This document shows positions 4,335 to 52,747 of a stretch of DNA of 64,000 nucleotides, in pieces. Each line of letters opens with the position of its first letter. Positions within the stretch are counted from its first letter, which is position 1. A program made the translations under genes and the position numbers. The DNA lies in assembly GCA_036489885.1 (NCBI GenBank), contig DASXEW010000003.1:1984001-2048000 (forward strand), in the 5' to 3' direction. The notes under the pieces were generated by a model, which saw only the letters and a list, made by a program, of their open reading frames with translations, was not told the origin of the DNA and ran no database searches. The DNA comes from Candidatus Baltobacteraceae bacterium (GTDB taxonomy: Bacteria; Vulcanimicrobiota; Vulcanimicrobiia; Vulcanimicrobiales; Vulcanimicrobiaceae).

Positions 4335-4454
4335 GTCATCCTGAGCGTAGCAACGCGTAGCGTTGCGTAGTCGAAGGACAGCGGCAATGCTTACCGTCTG
4401 ACAAGAGCCGCTGTCCCTCGACTACGCGCCCAAGGGCGCTACGCTCGGGATGAC
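4335..4454. repeat. REP/BIME-like inverted pair of about 50-bp units
   Basis: Two copies of one unit face each other. The left arm (4335-4385) and the reverse complement of the right arm (4407-4454) share the ends GTCATCCYGAGCGTAGC and CGTAGTCGARGGACAGCGGC. Each arm holds a different small internal hairpin, and a loop of about 21 nt lies between the arms. The whole can fold as a long cruciform. It sits between the convergent ends of the MacB-type permease and the TPR-ATP-grasp gene, whose final codons and stop lie inside the right arm. A third, single unit is at 52632-52675. Confidence 0.85.
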
Positions 4455-5590
4455 ACAGAAGAGCGAATCAGTTTCTCCAGCGCGGCCGGGATGCGCGGCA
4501 CGTACTCATGTTTGTACGGATACATCTCGCGCGAGTCGACGAGATGGACGATCATAGCCGGATCGATCTCAAAGATGAGGACGCGGCCATCTTCGAGCAC
4601 GCTACAATCGATTCCGAAGTAGTCGAGTCCAACGCGCCGGGCAATTTCTTGTAAGACGCGCTCACGAGGTCCGTCGAAGACGTTGCCGACGTCGGCAAGA
4701 AAACGTTGCTCCTCGTCGCGTATCCATTGCTCTTTCGCATTGAGCGCGTTGTAGTAGTGTACCATCCAATTCTGCGAGATGGCGAGATGATGTGCGTATG
4801 GGACGCCGCCCACGAAGATGATGCGATACTTCCGAAAGTATCCGTCCTTGCGCCGGTAATCGATGAACGGCATCACGTAGAACTCATCGCCGGGAGTCTC
4901 GCGCAGGTATATGTCGAGCTCTTCGGACGTCTCGATCCTCGAGAACTGCGCACCCGCCTGCGAGCCGACCGGACGAATGACGTACGCAGCCTCCAAGACG
5001 ATGTCCTCACGGCGCAGGCGTCGCGTTACCGGTACCAGTGCACCATCAAGGTCTGCAAAGTCGCGAGCAACGCCATCGCGGCTTAGCCGCTGAACACTAG
5101 CCGGATCGTTGAGCACGCGCCGTCCGAGTTTTGGAAGCCAACTCTCGAGCAGCTTCAAGGTTCGACCGGATTGCTCCGAATGCGCGATGACGTTGAAGAC
5201 GACGTCGAAGGGTGGAAGAACGCCGCGCGGAGGCAACGGGTCGACGTCGTCGACGTACATCTTCATGATCCCGACATTGAGTGAACCGTACAAAAACTCG
5301 AGCGGGACGTTGGCTTGCCAATCACCGGGAATCGCGACGAGCAACATGGTGGGCGCACCCTGCGGCGCGGACTTGTCGAGAAAGAGACGCTGCTTGGCCA
5401 GGACGCGCGCCTGGTGCTCGAGTGCGCGTTCGCGATCGCCTTTGATTTGAAATGCTTCGTACAATCCGAGATGTGCGGGAATACTTTCGGGGTCGGCAGC
5501 TATCACCCGGTTGAACGCAGCGATTGCATCGTCGGCTTTCATTGCCCGGAGAGCTTCTTGGCCCGCGGCAATGTTCGTATCGGAGGACAT
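4439..5590 (-). CDS. TPR plus ATP-grasp ligase-like protein (paralog 1)
   Basis: A 383-residue protein with one or two N-terminal TPR motifs (about residues 8-75), a Rossmann-like pre-ATP-grasp region and a C-terminal RimK-like ATP-grasp fold. Recognisable blocks are FDVVFNVIAHSEQSGRTLKL, VLNDPASVQRLSRDG, YVIRPVGSQAGAQFSRIE, KYRIIFVGGVPYAHHLAISQ and GLDYFGIDC followed by FEIDPAM. The last block is the metal-binding end of the fold; its usual ExN reads E-x-D here, while both paralogs in this window keep E-x-N. Family members join a carboxylate to an amine through an acyl phosphate. The substrate is unknown. The last codons (VSSRA, stop) are encoded by the REP-like repeat. The next upstream gene is MocR. 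Confidence 0.75.
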   Translation of the reverse strand: MSSDTNIAAGQEALRAMKADDAIAAFNRVIAADPESIPAHLGLYEAFQIKGDRERALEHQARVLAKQRLFLDKSAPQGAPTMLLVAIPGDWQANVPLEFLYGSLNVGIMKMYVDDVDPLPPRGVLPPFDVVFNVIAHSEQSGRTLKLLESWLPKLGRRVLNDPASVQRLSRDGVARDFADLDGALVPVTRRLRREDIVLEAAYVIRPVGSQAGAQFSRIETSEELDIYLRETPGDEFYVMPFIDYRRKDGYFRKYRIIFVGGVPYAHHLAISQNWMVHYYNALNAKEQWIRDEEQRFLADVGNVFDGPRERVLQEIARRVGLDYFGIDCSVLEDGRVLIFEIDPAMIVHLVDSREMYPYKHEYVPRIPAALEKLIRSSVSSRA

Positions 5591-40343: not shown

Positions 40344-41768
40344 ATGACGGAAAGTGCCGGAATGACGGCTCGCCAAGCGGCGTACGTCGATATCGAGCGG
40401 TTTCTGGAAGCGCCTCGCGAGCTCTTTGCTCCGAAGCACCAGCGCGCGTGTCTTCTCAGCATGCTCGGGCGGCGTGAAGAAGCGCAGACGGCGTTCATGG
40501 AACTGCTCGCCGAGGACCCAACGAACTTTGGCGTCCTCAACGACTTCGGTATGTTTTTGTTTTCGGGAGGCTTGCGAAGGCCGGCGCTCACCGCGCTCGC
40601 CGAAGCGGTCAAGTGGCATCCCGAGGATGCCGTCGGTCACACGAACCTTGCAAGTCTCTATTTAACCGAAGGCGACCTGGCACAGGCACGCGCGCACTTC
40701 GAACAAGCTCTCGCGATCGATCCGAATCCAAAAGCGTACGAAGGCCTTAGCCTTGTACTCGAGCGTCTCGGCGATATCGCGGGCGCGCGCGCACACCGGC
40801 CGACAGTCGTGCGAGAGCCGAGTGCAATCCAAGCATTTTTACATAACGGCGACCCGGTCAAAGTCTTACTGGTCGAATCGGTGATCGGCGGAAATCTCTA
40901 CGCGCACGATTTGCTGCGGACGCCGGCGTTCGATGTCCGCCAAGTCTTCCTCGAATATCTTGAACCAAATGTCCCGTATCCCGAGCACGACGTCGTCTGG
41001 AACGCGATCGGCGATGCTGAACGGTGCGCTGCGCTGCTGGACTTGGCGCCTGCCGTCTTTGGGCGAACCGATCGTCCGGTGTTGAACCGTCCCCAAGCGG
41101 TTCGGACGACGAGCCGCACGCACAATGCCGAGCGGCTCTCATCGATCGCGGACGTCATCACGCCACACGTTCTCAAAGTACCTCGGGAACGTCTTGCACA
41201 TATCGATGGACTACGTTATCCGATTTTATTGCGGTCACCGGGATTTCACACCGGTGAGTATTTCGTGCGAGTTGAGTCGGCCGGCGAACTTGCGGCTGCA
41301 GCGGCGAGCTTGCCGGGACGCGAGCTGTTGTTGATCGAGTTTCTCGACGTCCGGAATTCCGACGGCAAGGTGCGCAAGTATCGTGTCGTTATCGTGGATG
41401 GAAAACTCTATCCGCTCCATGCTGCGGTCGCGGAACAGTGGAAGGTGCATTACTTCACCGCCGACATGGCCGAGAATGCCGGACATCGTGCCGAGGATGC
41501 AGCCTTCGTCGAAAGCCTCGAAGCTACGATTGGAACTCGCGCGCTTCGCGCTTTGGAGAAGATTCGCGAGGCGCTCGATCTCGACTACGGCGGGATCGAC
41601 TTTGCGATTGACTCTAACGGTCGCGTCGTCGTGTTCGAGGCGAACGCAACCATGATCGTCCCGGAGCCTGAAGATGACGAACGCTGGCGTTATCGCCTAC
41701 CGCCGGTCCAGCGCATCTATGACGCGGTTCGTTCGATGCTGGTCAAGCGAGCGCGCTTTACGGCTTAG
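40344..41768 (+). CDS. TPR plus ATP-grasp ligase-like protein (paralog 2)
   Basis: 474 residues. Three or four TPR units (about residues 15-150; clear in AVGHTNLASLYLTEGDLAQA and RAHFEQALAIDPNPKAY) precede a pre-ATP-grasp domain (VVWNAIGDAERCAALLDLAP, VLNRPQAVRTTSRTHNAERL) and an ATP-grasp domain (YPILLRSPGFHTGEYFVRVE, KYRVVIVDGKLYPLHAAV, LDLDYGGIDFAIDSNGRVVV, then FEANATM). The FEANA motif supplies the Glu/Asn metal ligands. It is a close paralog of the gene at 51229 and a more distant one of that at 4439. It diverges from the STAND ATPase and ends in TTAG shared with a DUF5985 gene. Ligation of an amino acid or peptide is likely; the substrate is unknown. Confidence 0.8.
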   Translation: MTESAGMTARQAAYVDIERFLEAPRELFAPKHQRACLLSMLGRREEAQTAFMELLAEDPTNFGVLNDFGMFLFSGGLRRPALTALAEAVKWHPEDAVGHTNLASLYLTEGDLAQARAHFEQALAIDPNPKAYEGLSLVLERLGDIAGARAHRPTVVREPSAIQAFLHNGDPVKVLLVESVIGGNLYAHDLLRTPAFDVRQVFLEYLEPNVPYPEHDVVWNAIGDAERCAALLDLAPAVFGRTDRPVLNRPQAVRTTSRTHNAERLSSIADVITPHVLKVPRERLAHIDGLRYPILLRSPGFHTGEYFVRVESAGELAAAAASLPGRELLLIEFLDVRNSDGKVRKYRVVIVDGKLYPLHAAVAEQWKVHYFTADMAENAGHRAEDAAFVESLEATIGTRALRALEKIREALDLDYGGIDFAIDSNGRVVVFEANATMIVPEPEDDERWRYRLPPVQRIYDAVRSMLVKRARFTA

Positions 41769-42788: not shown

Positions 42789-44564
42789 CTATATCTCGCG
42801 GCGAGGACGAAGCGCGGCCTCCTCGGGAGTAAACTGAAAGGTCGGTATTCCGAAGATCTCGTCGGGTGAACGGTGCAAGAACACGTCGAGCATTTTTTCG
42901 CGCTCGGCCTGTATAAGGGGGCGATCGCGAAGGGGAACGGTCCTGTATACGAATGCGAGGCAATCGCGAGCAAATTCGCCGTTCAGGAGTCTTGATGAAA
43001 TCCCCGCACCGTCGAGCCGGGGTCTGTATTCGTTAGTAAAATGATCAACATGCAGAAGATCCGCGTACACCGAGGATCGCATGACTTGCGCAAGGTCGGT
43101 TTCCATGTAGTACTCAGCGCTACTCCTCGCGGCTTCCGGGGCATCGTCAAAGAGGCCGATTTGTTTGAAGAACCGAGTGCGCGCCATCATGCTCATTGAC
43201 GTTATGGCGACATTGATCAATACCCACGTCGGATCGTTCGGCACATTAGGGGGTATGCGATAGCCGCATTCGTAGACGGCGCCGTCGGCCTCCAACACGG
43301 CGTAGGAGTACACCGTATTGCCATGCGCGACGTCTCCTCCGCAACGCTCCAGAGCCTGAGCCAGCCGCTCGACGTGGTCGGGGAAAAGACGATCGTCATC
43401 TGCGATCGCTGTGACATATTCGCCGTCGGCAGCACGCCAGCCGGCCTTCAGTGCGTTCATGCCGCCGACATTGCTCTCGAGCTCGACGAGTTTGATACGA
43501 AGGAACGGGAATTCATCGCATAACTCCCGGAGCGACGGGCCGCCATCATTCACGAGCACGATTTGAAGATTTGGATAGCTTTGCTTCGAAAGTGAGATCA
43601 GCTGCAATCGAACTTCATCCGGCCGGTTGTACGTCGGACATACGACGGAGACGAGCGTTGCTTCGGCCGTCGGCTGGATTCCCGCTTGGAGCGGCGGCGG
43701 TAAAGCGGCCGAAAACTTTCGAATTGACGAGGGCCTGCCGGCCGCATCTTGCACCGCTCGACAGACGCTTGCGGGTTCCCAAGCCGTAAAGAATGTCGCG
43801 CGAGAGATGAATTCTTCGACGCCCGTCGTGCTGCTCGCGACGACGGGAAAACCGCGTTGGGCGAAGGCGATCGCGGCGCCCGGATCCGCAAGCGAGGCAT
43901 CCACGATGCAGGAAGCATTTCGGAGCAGATCGGCGACACTGTCGTCGTCTGCCGGCAAATACTTTGCACGAACGCTCGGGAGCTCGCCCTCCGAGCAGAC
44001 GATCCACGTCTCGGTCTGCAACTCCTCGAGAGAAAGGGCGAGAAAGGCCGTCTCGGTTGCGTTGAGTTCCGGCGCCCACACCACGACACGTGTCTGTCTT
44101 GTGGGAGCCCAGATCACATTGGGAAGCTCGTGGGGAACGACAAGAAGCTCGTATTCGCGCCAAAACCCTCCGGTAATCTCGTGATAGCGTAAGGCCTCGA
44201 AATGCGAGTGAAAGAGCTGCGCGGAGCCGAGGGCTACAAATTCGCGTACGAGAGCCTCAGGCCACATAAAGTCATTTTGCGGGTTGCTGTCGATCGAGGT
44301 GTCGGCAAGAGCGGTGAAAGCGGTACGACGGTTCTCAGAAGACAAGTCTCGCATGGCGATGTCGGTGGCGAGTTTCCAGACCATCGCGGCACGCGGTTCG
44401 TTCCAAAGCACGAAGTGGTAGGTGCGCTCACCGCGTTGCCTGCACTGGATCGCTGCCGGAAAGGCTTGACGTAACGCAGCGATGTCGGTAAAGACCGCGT
44501 CAAATGCTACCGTTCCGAGCCGGGCCGCAAGCGTGTCGGCCTGCCGCCCGAAGGAGTGAATCAT
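42789..44564 (-). CDS. Fused glycosyltransferase: GT4-like domain plus GT2 domain
   Basis: 591 residues. Residues 1-290 form a degenerate GT-B-like half ending in VDASLADPGAAIAFAQRGFP and VVASSTTGVEEFISRATFF, the pattern of a GT4 donor site. Residues 305-591 are a GT2 domain: LVSVVCPTYNRPDEVRLQLI, IVLVNDGG, AIADDDRLFPDHVERL (DDD as DxD), and WVLINVAITSMSMMARTRFF. The N-terminal half is paralogous to the whole of the next gene. ATG at 44564 overlaps that gene's stop (ATGA). The product probably transfers sugars to a surface glycan or protein; the acceptor is unknown. Confidence 0.78.
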   Translation of the reverse strand: MIHSFGRQADTLAARLGTVAFDAVFTDIAALRQAFPAAIQCRQRGERTYHFVLWNEPRAAMVWKLATDIAMRDLSSENRRTAFTALADTSIDSNPQNDFMWPEALVREFVALGSAQLFHSHFEALRYHEITGGFWREYELLVVPHELPNVIWAPTRQTRVVVWAPELNATETAFLALSLEELQTETWIVCSEGELPSVRAKYLPADDDSVADLLRNASCIVDASLADPGAAIAFAQRGFPVVASSTTGVEEFISRATFFTAWEPASVCRAVQDAAGRPSSIRKFSAALPPPLQAGIQPTAEATLVSVVCPTYNRPDEVRLQLISLSKQSYPNLQIVLVNDGGPSLRELCDEFPFLRIKLVELESNVGGMNALKAGWRAADGEYVTAIADDDRLFPDHVERLAQALERCGGDVAHGNTVYSYAVLEADGAVYECGYRIPPNVPNDPTWVLINVAITSMSMMARTRFFKQIGLFDDAPEAARSSAEYYMETDLAQVMRSSVYADLLHVDHFTNEYRPRLDGAGISSRLLNGEFARDCLAFVYRTVPLRDRPLIQAEREKMLDVFLHRSPDEIFGIPTFQFTPEEAALRPRREI

Positions 44565-45478
44565 CTGCTCATTGCCGCGTTTGTGAGGCGCGGTGGCATG
44601 ACCGGGAAGGCGTGTCGCGCGCTTGCGGGCCGGCCGAGACTTTGGAGCACGCCCCAGTACACGGTGCGGTGTGCCCATGGGATGAACAGGCCCACCGGCG
44701 AGACGAATTCGGCGGCACCGGTCGTCCAGCTCGACACGACCGGAAAGCCACGCTCTGCAAAAGCGATCGCGGCAGCAGGATCGGAAAGCGAGGAATCGAC
44801 GATACAAGAGGCGCGTCCCAAAAGGTCCCGGACGCGAGGATCGTCGCGATGGATGTAATTCGCGCGGACGTCCGGCGCGTCGCCGTCGGAACACACCACC
44901 CACGTCTCGGCGTGCAATTCCTCAAGTGCGAACGCGAGAAAGCTCGTTTCGGGGGCGCTTAGATAAGGCGCCCAAATCACCACGAGCGGTTCTCTTGTCG
45001 GACGCCAACTCACGTCGGGCAATTCCGCGGGAACGACGAGTAGCTCCCATTCACGAAATGGCGTGTTAAAGTTTTCTCTGAATCGCTTCACTTCGCAACG
45101 CGACCGAAAGAGCTGGACAGCGGTCATCTCTGCGAATTTGCGTACCTCTTCGCTAGGCAGCGCCAAGAGAAGACTTGCAGGCTGCCCGTTCACCAGCACA
45201 TTTTGGAGATAATCAAGCCGTTGCAATGAATTGATCGATGAGTTTCGGTGATCAAGGCTCGAGGGCGCAGCGAGAAGCTTGCTCGCAATGAACCAGGTTA
45301 CGGCGATTCGAGGTTCGACCCAAAGCAGCATTCCATAGAGCTGCTCTCCTCGGGCCCGGCGTTCGCGCGTTTGAACGGACGCCTCTTGAAGATGCGATAT
45401 ATCTGAGAGAACGGCATCAAACGGATCGCCGAGTCGCGCGCTCAGTGCGGCGCTCTCGGGGCCGAACGCGTAAATCAT
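44561..45478 (-). CDS. Stand-alone GT4-like glycosyltransferase-related protein
   Basis: 305 residues, paralogous to the N-terminal half of the downstream fusion. Matching blocks include the starts MIYAFGPESAALSARLG and MIHSFGRQADTLAARLG, LLVVPAELPDVSWRPTR and LLVVPHELPNVIWAPTR, and ETSFLAFALEELHAETWVVC and ETAFLALSLEELQTETWIVC. It ends with VDSSLSDPAAAIAFAERGFP and VVSSWTTGAAEFVSPVGLF. It lacks a visible GT2 domain. A tandem duplication followed by fusion or loss of a GT2 domain explains the pair. Its own promoter may lie at 45499-45540. Confidence 0.72.
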   Translation of the reverse strand: MIYAFGPESAALSARLGDPFDAVLSDISHLQEASVQTRERRARGEQLYGMLLWVEPRIAVTWFIASKLLAAPSSLDHRNSSINSLQRLDYLQNVLVNGQPASLLLALPSEEVRKFAEMTAVQLFRSRCEVKRFRENFNTPFREWELLVVPAELPDVSWRPTREPLVVIWAPYLSAPETSFLAFALEELHAETWVVCSDGDAPDVRANYIHRDDPRVRDLLGRASCIVDSSLSDPAAAIAFAERGFPVVSSWTTGAAEFVSPVGLFIPWAHRTVYWGVLQSLGRPASARHAFPVMPPRLTNAAMSR

Positions 45479-51228: not shown

Positions 51229-52623
51229 TTAAACGCCGGTCGCGAGTGTAAGCATCGATTCAACCGCATCAAGTGCGCGGTGAACGGCGCTGCGGCGGTA
51301 TTCCCACATCTTTGCGACCGGCTCCGGCGGAATCGTCATCGTCGCATTGGCTTCGAAGAGCAACAGATTTCCATTGCGGTCGAGTCCAAAATCGACGCCG
51401 GCATAATCAAGGTCGAGCGCTGCGCCGATCGCGTCGAGGGCGGCCGTTGCCACGGGTCCGATCGCTTCGGGCATATATTCAAGGAAGGCAGCTTCCTCAA
51501 AACGGGATGTCGCTTCGCGCGCATTGTCGGCGGTGAAATAGTGGACCATCCACGTGGACGTGATAGCGAGGTGCAACGGATAGACTTGCCCGCCGACGAT
51601 CATCGCGCGGTACTTCCGAACCTTCCCGTCGACTTTGCGTGCGTCGAGAAACTCGATCGCAAGCACTTCCGCACCCGGCAGACGAGACAGTGCGGCGCGA
51701 ACGCCGCCGGAATCTTCGATCCGGACGAAGTGGTCGCCCGAATGATGCCCGGGCGCGCGCAACAGGAACGGAAACGCAAATCCAGCTTGCGCAAATACTT
51801 CGGCCGGATCTCCATCGAGCGCCCCGCGTGAAAAAAGCTGGATGCGCGGCGCAACGACGCCGGGCAGCGCACCCAGCCGGTAAGCGTTCTCAATCCGTGT
51901 CGTTCGCAAAACGGATGCCGGTTTATTCAGAACGTGCTTTGATGTCCTACGCGTAAGCTCGGCCGCTGCGTCGAGTGCAGCTGCGCAACGATCGGCGTCG
52001 CCGATCGCATTAAAAACGAGATCGTGTTCGGGAAGCTGCATCGCGGTATCGCTTACGTCGACAAACAGCTTAGTGATCGCGTACCGGTGATCGTCGAGAA
52101 TGTGGCGCAGATCGACGTTGCCGCCTGCCGACGACAAGAGCAGAAGAACGTCGGCAACGGGTTTGCCGTCCCCCCGATATGGAACGCGGTCGATGCTGCG
52201 ATCGCGGAAGCCGAGTTTGCGATGACGATCGGCGTTCGCATCATCGCCTAGTCGGACGAAGACCGCATTGAGACCCTGGTGTGCTTCGGCACAATCAGCG
52301 TCGAGTGCGAGCGCCGCTTCGAATGCATTGCGAGCGGCAGTGAGATTGCTGCCTTCCAGAAGCGCGACGCCGAGATTGACGTGCGCGGCCGGATTGTCCG
52401 GATGCCGCATAAGCGCTTCGCGATATGTTGCGAGAGCCGCGGCCGTGTGGCCGCTTCGGGCAAAGAGATTGCCGAGATTGTTGAGGGCGCCGAAATGGTG
52501 CGGGTCCACGTCCAGGACTGCAAAGTACGCGTTGCGGGCGTCCTCATCGCGACCCGATGCCTCGAGGTCTTTGGCTTCCTGGAAGAACGCTTCGGCGTCG
52601 TTGGGCACGGGTGGCCTTACCAT
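51229..52623 (-). CDS. TPR plus ATP-grasp ligase-like protein (paralog 3)
   Basis: 464 residues from ATG at 52623. The TPR units (about residues 5-120; HFGALNNLGNLFARSGHTAA, HPDNPAAHVNLGVALLEGSN) are followed by the pre-ATP-grasp region (LVFNAIGDADRCAAALDAAA, VLNKPASVLRTTRIENAYRL) and the ATP-grasp domain (FPFLLRAPGHHSGDHFVRIE, KYRAMIVGGQVYPLHLAITS, LDLDYAGVDFGLDRNGNLLL, then FEANATM). The reading frame stays open upstream to GTG at 52677, but those 18 codons are the REP-like unit, so the inner ATG is preferred. The order of motifs is the same as in the genes at 4439 and 40344. Confidence 0.8.
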   Translation of the reverse strand: MVRPPVPNDAEAFFQEAKDLEASGRDEDARNAYFAVLDVDPHHFGALNNLGNLFARSGHTAAALATYREALMRHPDNPAAHVNLGVALLEGSNLTAARNAFEAALALDADCAEAHQGLNAVFVRLGDDANADRHRKLGFRDRSIDRVPYRGDGKPVADVLLLLSSAGGNVDLRHILDDHRYAITKLFVDVSDTAMQLPEHDLVFNAIGDADRCAAALDAAAELTRRTSKHVLNKPASVLRTTRIENAYRLGALPGVVAPRIQLFSRGALDGDPAEVFAQAGFAFPFLLRAPGHHSGDHFVRIEDSGGVRAALSRLPGAEVLAIEFLDARKVDGKVRKYRAMIVGGQVYPLHLAITSTWMVHYFTADNAREATSRFEEAAFLEYMPEAIGPVATAALDAIGAALDLDYAGVDFGLDRNGNLLLFEANATMTIPPEPVAKMWEYRRSAVHRALDAVESMLTLATGV

Positions 52624-52631
52624 CCAACACG

Positions 52632-52675
52632 GCCACTGTCCCTCGACCGGTGACGGTCGAGACGCTCGGAATGAC
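52632..52675. repeat. Single REP-like unit (third copy)
   Basis: Ends GCCACTGTCCCTCGA and ACGCTCGGAATGAC match the arms of the 4335-4454 element with single-base changes. The inner hairpin is different: CTCGACCG-GTGA-CGGTCGAG, a perfect 8-bp stem with a 4-nt loop. It abuts the start of the TPR-ATP-grasp paralog 3. Confidence 0.8.
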
Positions 52676-52747
52676 ACAGAGGTCGTTGCGCGGAAGTGGG
52701 CTGTTAGGGTAACCTAAAGACCCGCGTCGCCGTACCTACGAGGTCCT

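Follow-up and report, generated by a model that had tools for sequence, protein, structure and literature searches.

Two adjacent genes raise the question of how a glycosyltransferase-like domain comes to exist both on its own and joined to a second glycosyltransferase domain, which of these states is the older, and what the free copy might do.

A stand-alone domain gene overlaps a fusion gene

The window, which is the whole stretch of 64,000 nucleotides analyzed here, carries both genes on its minus strand: P0002 (44561..45478; 305 residues) lies upstream and is followed directly by P0001 (42789..44564; 591 residues). The stop codon of P0002 and the start codon of P0001 share the 4 bp ATGA (44561..44564), an arrangement suggesting that their translation may be coupled. 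The P0001 start was picked by homology; the open frame extends upstream inside P0002 and would give 704 aa if begun at its first start codon. The pairwise alignment of P0001 residues 1–292 (43689..44564) with P0002 spans 299 columns, of which 45% are identical (E = 4e-81). The 305-residue gene had been predicted to be a tandem paralog of the first half of the 591-residue gene, and this is what we find, down to parallel strings such as LLVVPHELP and LLVVPAELP, or LSLEELQTETWIVCS and FALEELHAETWVVCS.

The second half of P0001, judged by its sequence, is an ordinary GT2 domain. It matches PF00535 over residues 306–429 (43278..43649) with 74.4 bits against a curated cut-off of 23.3 (E = 1.3e-20), and it retains the motif VNDGG, whose aspartate we take to be the nucleotide-binding one, together with a DDD at residues 389–391 (43392..43400), presumably a DXD-type motif, which is found in all 14 aligned fusions (P0001 and 13 others). 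P0001 is thus a plain member of this family in its C-terminal half, but differs in having a GT-B-like domain ahead of the GT2 in the same frame.

The shared domain is predicted to adopt a GT-B fold

Scans of Pfam and NCBIfam assign no family above cut-off either to P0002 or to the N-terminal half of P0001. Below cut-off, the latter matches GT4-conflict (E = 0.056) and the GT4-type EPS_EpsE model (E = 0.13), and it scores 12.8 bits with a GT4-type Pfam model for which the cut-off is 26. When 20 members of the N-domain family were compared with GT4-type Pfam models, no single model was matched by more than three of them with E allowed up to 1 (the best value being 0.0011), and a sequence comparison of P0002 with solved structures returned a single chance match (E = 0.38).

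Structure prediction is more informative. An AlphaFold2 model of P0002, built with four relatives, has a pLDDT of 86.3 and a pTM of 0.85, and the 50 VIA-align matches listed for it are GT-B enzymes, among them sucrose-phosphate synthase (Z 15.9), BshA, SenB, PglA and HepE; Z-scores run from 15.9 to 12.5 over 233–257 residues with rmsd of 3.2 to 4.3 Å, and the span covers the whole of P0002. Foldseek also returned GT-B enzymes (best E = 3e-5), albeit with TM-scores of just 0.25 to 0.52, perhaps the consequence of differing domain angles. Profile–profile comparison (hhalign) of the 20 N-domains with ten GT4-type enzymes gave a probability of 96 and E = 4.4e-9 over 179 columns, which fall mostly on the C-terminal Rossmann half. 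A model of full-length P0001 was too poor for use (pLDDT 52.9). The N-domain is therefore modeled as a GT-B fold near the GT4-type enzymes such as BshA, PglA and HepE, with which it shares the fold across the whole of P0002 and profile homology over those 179 columns. The GT4-like nature proposed for the first half of P0001 is upheld by predicted structure and profile comparison, and not by assignment to a Pfam or NCBIfam family above cut-off.

Distribution of the family

This genome (G000) has eight copies of the N-domain, and all except P0002 lie in frames of 586–771 aa with a GT2 behind; all 62 candidates in this genome were scored, and the only other match was chance-like (E = 4.9e-4, with stops). 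A profile search across the phylum matched 16 of 149 genomes, all from the window's own family within the Eremiobacterota. The hits in two of these, G013:C157 and G012:C6, were weak and came from single-domain frames that carry E(x7)E, as ordinary GT4 enzymes do, and after their removal 35 copies in 14 genomes were left. The best 20 candidates at most per genome were scored in the class search, and the best 15 at most in the phylum search, so weak family members may be missed and copy counts are to be read as at least these values. Twenty of the members were in the training set of the profile, so that their E-values are flattering; with P0002 or the N-terminal half of P0001 alone as a BLASTP query, 18 of the collected ORFs are found at E < 1e-4.

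A GT2 follows the N-domain in 31 of the 35 copies found. Three of these fusions are cut by contig ends and one has a worn GT2 (L060 2534-4135). The four unfused or broken copies are P0002, a stand-alone gene in G019, a copy in G026 whose GT2 remnant is still visible (L060 4093-5283; E = 6.5e-5), and a copy in G001 (G001:C412; L054 3-1709) in which a single in-frame stop parts the N-domain from the GT2, by a true split, decay or assembly error. G019 is a metagenome assembly (PLRU01000097.1, Candidatus Eremiobacterota bacterium bog_1526), and it repeats the order seen in the window, a lone copy followed by a fusion, again with a 4-bp overlap (L051 6686-6689; L094:6879-6882). Each stand-alone case is represented by one genome. 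The reverse domain order also occurs in G000, in a 765-aa frame (G000:C3:61097-62848) that matches PF00535 and then PF00534 (GT2 followed by GT4).

P0002 had no match among plasmids and phages, nor did alignment A2 among viral contigs. A short-pattern scan of genome contigs found no related loci with P0002 and two with alignment A2, both in the G019 record; other genomes of the family possibly lie outside that dataset, and absence of the family elsewhere is not established by these scans. The N-domain is an unannotated domain ahead of what would be named just 'glycosyltransferase family 2', and a literature search, judged by titles, found nothing on such a fusion of a GT-B domain to a GT2 (GT-A) domain.

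Fusion appears to precede loss of the GT2 domain

The original prediction derived the pair from tandem duplication with later fusion. The two domains, however, have largely traveled together: among the 28 fusions in which both are near full length, pairwise distances between N-domains correlate with those between GT2 domains (Mantel r = 0.861; none of 9999 permutations was as high, the best reaching 0.305), and 21 of the 28 have the same nearest neighbor by either domain. In an N-domain tree of 34 rows (midpoint root, without the partial G087 row), P0001 and P0002 are sisters (99/87), and their neighbors are two more fusions of the same genome (98/95, 99/98). The G019 stand-alone gene falls into a group with two fusions of that genome (100/99), and its closest relative there is uncertain (94/67). 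A single clade of both stand-alone genes, as one shared origin would give, was rejected (p-AU = 2.6e-8), and a quick tree of 33 rows, with short domains excluded, requires four changes of state to account for the four copies listed above as unfused or broken. G093, a congener of G019, has three tandem fusions after dxr, in the place occupied in G019 by the lone copy and a single fusion, and likely still displays the earlier state of that locus.

Since 31 of 35 copies are fused, the N-domain and GT2 distances agree, and P0002 sits inside a group of fused genes, the fused form is best read as the older state and P0002 as a former fusion that lost its GT2; the G019 stand-alone gene would represent a separate loss. 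In both cases the lone gene is upstream of a fusion, as would also be expected if the lone domain were the original gene and a GT2 had later been joined to its tandem copy. We nevertheless regard that history as very improbable, because it runs against all three of these observations and needs many separate fusions, and duplication followed by fusion was rejected on these grounds.

Loss of active-site residues in the GT-B-like domain

The N-domains differ from GT4-type enzymes at the residues of the active site. Glutamate is absent from both E(x7)E positions in all 35 aligned N-domains; at the first, 23 have aspartate and 12 do not. In the hhalign register, D233 of P0002 corresponds to the first glutamate and I238 to the second, the loop being three residues shorter, and a loose search for E-x7-E found the pattern in two of the 35, both times far off this register. 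Ten GT4-type controls (eight of the 17 PF00534 matches of this genome, of single-domain size, and the two excluded weak hits in relatives) have glutamate at the first position in eight cases and at the second in eight. The column of the diphosphate arginine holds P, G or A in 34 N-domains and a gap in one, whereas the controls have R in five of ten. At any column of the diphosphate loop, at most six of the 35 have K or R, although this loop aligns uncertainly in the most divergent N-domains, while all ten controls have K or R at the lysine column. The control set is loose, with two of ten lacking E at each position and five of ten lacking the arginine, and this looseness and the diphosphate-loop check pull the odds in opposite ways.

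A study of WaaG and WaaB structures and WaaB mutants attributes binding of the donor's ribose, sugar and diphosphate to glutamates and basic residues at this site (PMC10556518). With the E(x7)E glutamates absent and no basic loop residue conserved, the N-domain is probably catalytically dead, although 23 of the 35 have aspartate in place of the first glutamate, and some ligand contact may therefore persist. The GT4 half had been said to lack some catalytic blocks, and it does. The same result bears on the two-catalytic-site enzyme that was envisaged for P0001, which was not borne out, though not disproved either; P0001 is probably rather a non-catalytic GT-B domain coupled to a GT2 catalyst.

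Genomic context

The window pair is flanked upstream by genes for tRNA-Tyr and tRNA-Gly on the opposite strand, and downstream by a small gene encoding an IclR-type HTH (E = 6.3e-5) and by one for DUF5985; neither a glycan cluster nor the rpsB-to-ispG operon surrounds it. Elsewhere in the family 12 of the 35 copies lie inside this operon or within ~10 kb of it (three each in G000, G019 and G093, one in G001 and two in G111), and G030 and G092 each have one copy 12 to 14 kb away; some other copies are on contigs too short for the distance to be read. Away from the operon are the window pair, two copies on G000:C1 and one on G000:C3.

Three G000 fusions lie within or adjoin rpsB-tsf-pyrH-frr-cdsA-dxr-rseP-ispG; a phosphoheptose-isomerase-like gene and two epimerases are their neighbors, and RfbC/F/G-like genes are farther away. 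G019 has the orders dxr, lone copy, fusion, ispG and frr, uppS, cdsA, fusion, epimerase, and copies in G093, G001 and G111 adjoin the operon too. Seen as a whole at L047 (G000:C2:112000-131900) and L094, the series rpsB-tsf-pyrH-frr-(uppS)-cdsA-dxr-rseP-ispG has glycosyltransferase genes inside it or at its edges, to which G000 and G019 add sugar-nucleotide genes. Four genes of G000 (rpsB, dxr, rseP, ispG) and three of G019 (dxr, ispG, uppS) score above NCBIfam cut-offs; the isomerase, like cdsA of G019, matches below cut-off, and cdsA of G000 had no match at E = 1e-20. The epimerases near fusions match PF01370, and tsf, pyrH, frr and RfbC/F/G are names that we presume from recognizing the sequences and not from a family search. 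Genes for lipid carriers, isoprenoids and nucleotides nearby would fit glycan assembly on a lipid carrier, and together with the nucleotide-sugar neighbors this hints at a part for the family in surface glycans. As this context belongs to other family members, we dropped it as a guide to the function of the window pair.

Two other features of the surroundings may be recorded. On G000:C1 a tandem pair of N-GT2 fusions is flanked by two large genes (L049 1109-3070 and 6836-8911), whose starts look lipoprotein-like by eye and whose codon position 1 is low in G+C. Genes for a TPR protein whose long C-terminal part has no Pfam assignment (E up to 1e-4) are found in the window at 40344-41768 (+), 51229-52677 (-) and 4439-5590 (-), the last a distant copy (29%) without a TPR match, and copies are near N-GT2 genes also in G019, G092 and G000:C3. 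This genome has about ten copies (11 matches, two in one frame), which makes nearness to the pair weak evidence, and a link between the pair and the gene at 40344-41768 was dropped.

Proposed role of the freed domain

On balance we lean towards the view that P0001 combines a dead GT-B domain with a GT2 catalyst and that P0002 is a freed copy of the former, serving in trans as a non-catalytic partner. The GT2 half of P0001 would transfer the sugar, while its GT-B half would most likely hold or orient the acceptor, or mediate assembly; the acceptor could be a surface glycan, either undecaprenyl-linked or LPS-type. Following tandem duplication of an N-GT2 fusion, the upstream copy would have lost its GT2 to become P0002, which is probably translated in coupling with P0001 and would most likely act with it or with other members of the family. 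P0002 had also been suggested to be a regulatory or acceptor-binding copy; a non-catalytic role is the reading we favor, and the helper role itself is what we infer.

Two other readings compete with a partner acting in trans. P0002 could be a relic: its GT2 would have been deleted from a former fusion, and what is left would be drifting without a function of its own; we think this unlikely, yet it keeps real weight. Losses of GT2 do recur, as the four state changes on the 33-row tree indicate, and the G026 copy with its GT2 remnant and the stop-split copy of G001 are what wear in a redundant family predicts. P0002 itself, however, has an intact frame and a full-length domain, keeps the conserved residues of the family and resembles P0001 in codon-position composition. 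Nor does the freed copy evolve faster than its fused sister: the end branches of P0002 and P0001 are 0.59 and 0.58, and that of the G019 lone copy (0.43) falls between those of its two neighboring fusions (0.34 and 0.65), although such lengths are compatible with slow decay too.

Alternatively the N-domain might still be a working glycosyltransferase with an altered active site, making P0001 a two-site and P0002 a one-site enzyme. The whole GT-B fold is retained, an acidic residue commonly replaces the first glutamate, the same genome encodes a 765-aa frame with both GT2 and GT4 matches, and two of the ten controls themselves lack E at each position. We consider this improbable all the same, given that glutamate never occupies the second position, that even the aspartate at the first is missing from 12 N-domains, and that the loop is shortened and has few basic residues at any column of its diphosphate-binding part.

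If the non-catalytic partner reading is correct, it would be a modest twist on known sugar-adding enzymes; the analysis also describes an unannotated domain in front of GT2, seen in 14 genomes. Other dead enzyme folds are known to act as helpers, yet an evolutionary series is seldom available for them. This bacterial family includes fusions, tandem arrays, one copy that is worn, one that is split and others that have been freed, and with this natural series of versions the role of a dead GT-B domain for its GT2 is testable by comparison.

Comparison with known systems

A lone glycosyltransferase domain can have an effect of its own. In a report on the rhamnosyltransferase EpsF, over-expression of its isolated N-terminal domain lowered exopolysaccharide mass five-fold (PMC7023835); this offers P0002 a precedent and no proof, and the EpsF domain was an engineered truncation whereas P0002 is a natural gene. 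A parallel in role is provided by GtfA-GtfB, an accessory Sec O-glycosyltransferase, of which GtfB is itself GT-B-like. GtfB is described as a chaperone that lacks catalytic activity and binds the acceptor (PMC12809243), and so a protein without catalysis would stand alongside an active glycosyltransferase, as proposed for P0002. That GtfB is a separate inactive partner indicates that such a part can exist as its own subunit, without proving it for P0002, and the likeness drawn here is one of role. The systems differ in that GtfA is GT4-type, whereas here the partner is a GT2 (GT-A) enzyme and the dead domain is usually covalently fused to it. Our boldest proposal, a tentative one that we hold as possible though somewhat doubtful, is that across one family a dead GT-B domain was fixed before a GT2 and was freed at least twice as a coupled upstream gene, to act in trans as an acceptor-binding or regulatory subunit, which would make the pair a GT-B/GT-A counterpart of GtfB/GtfA.
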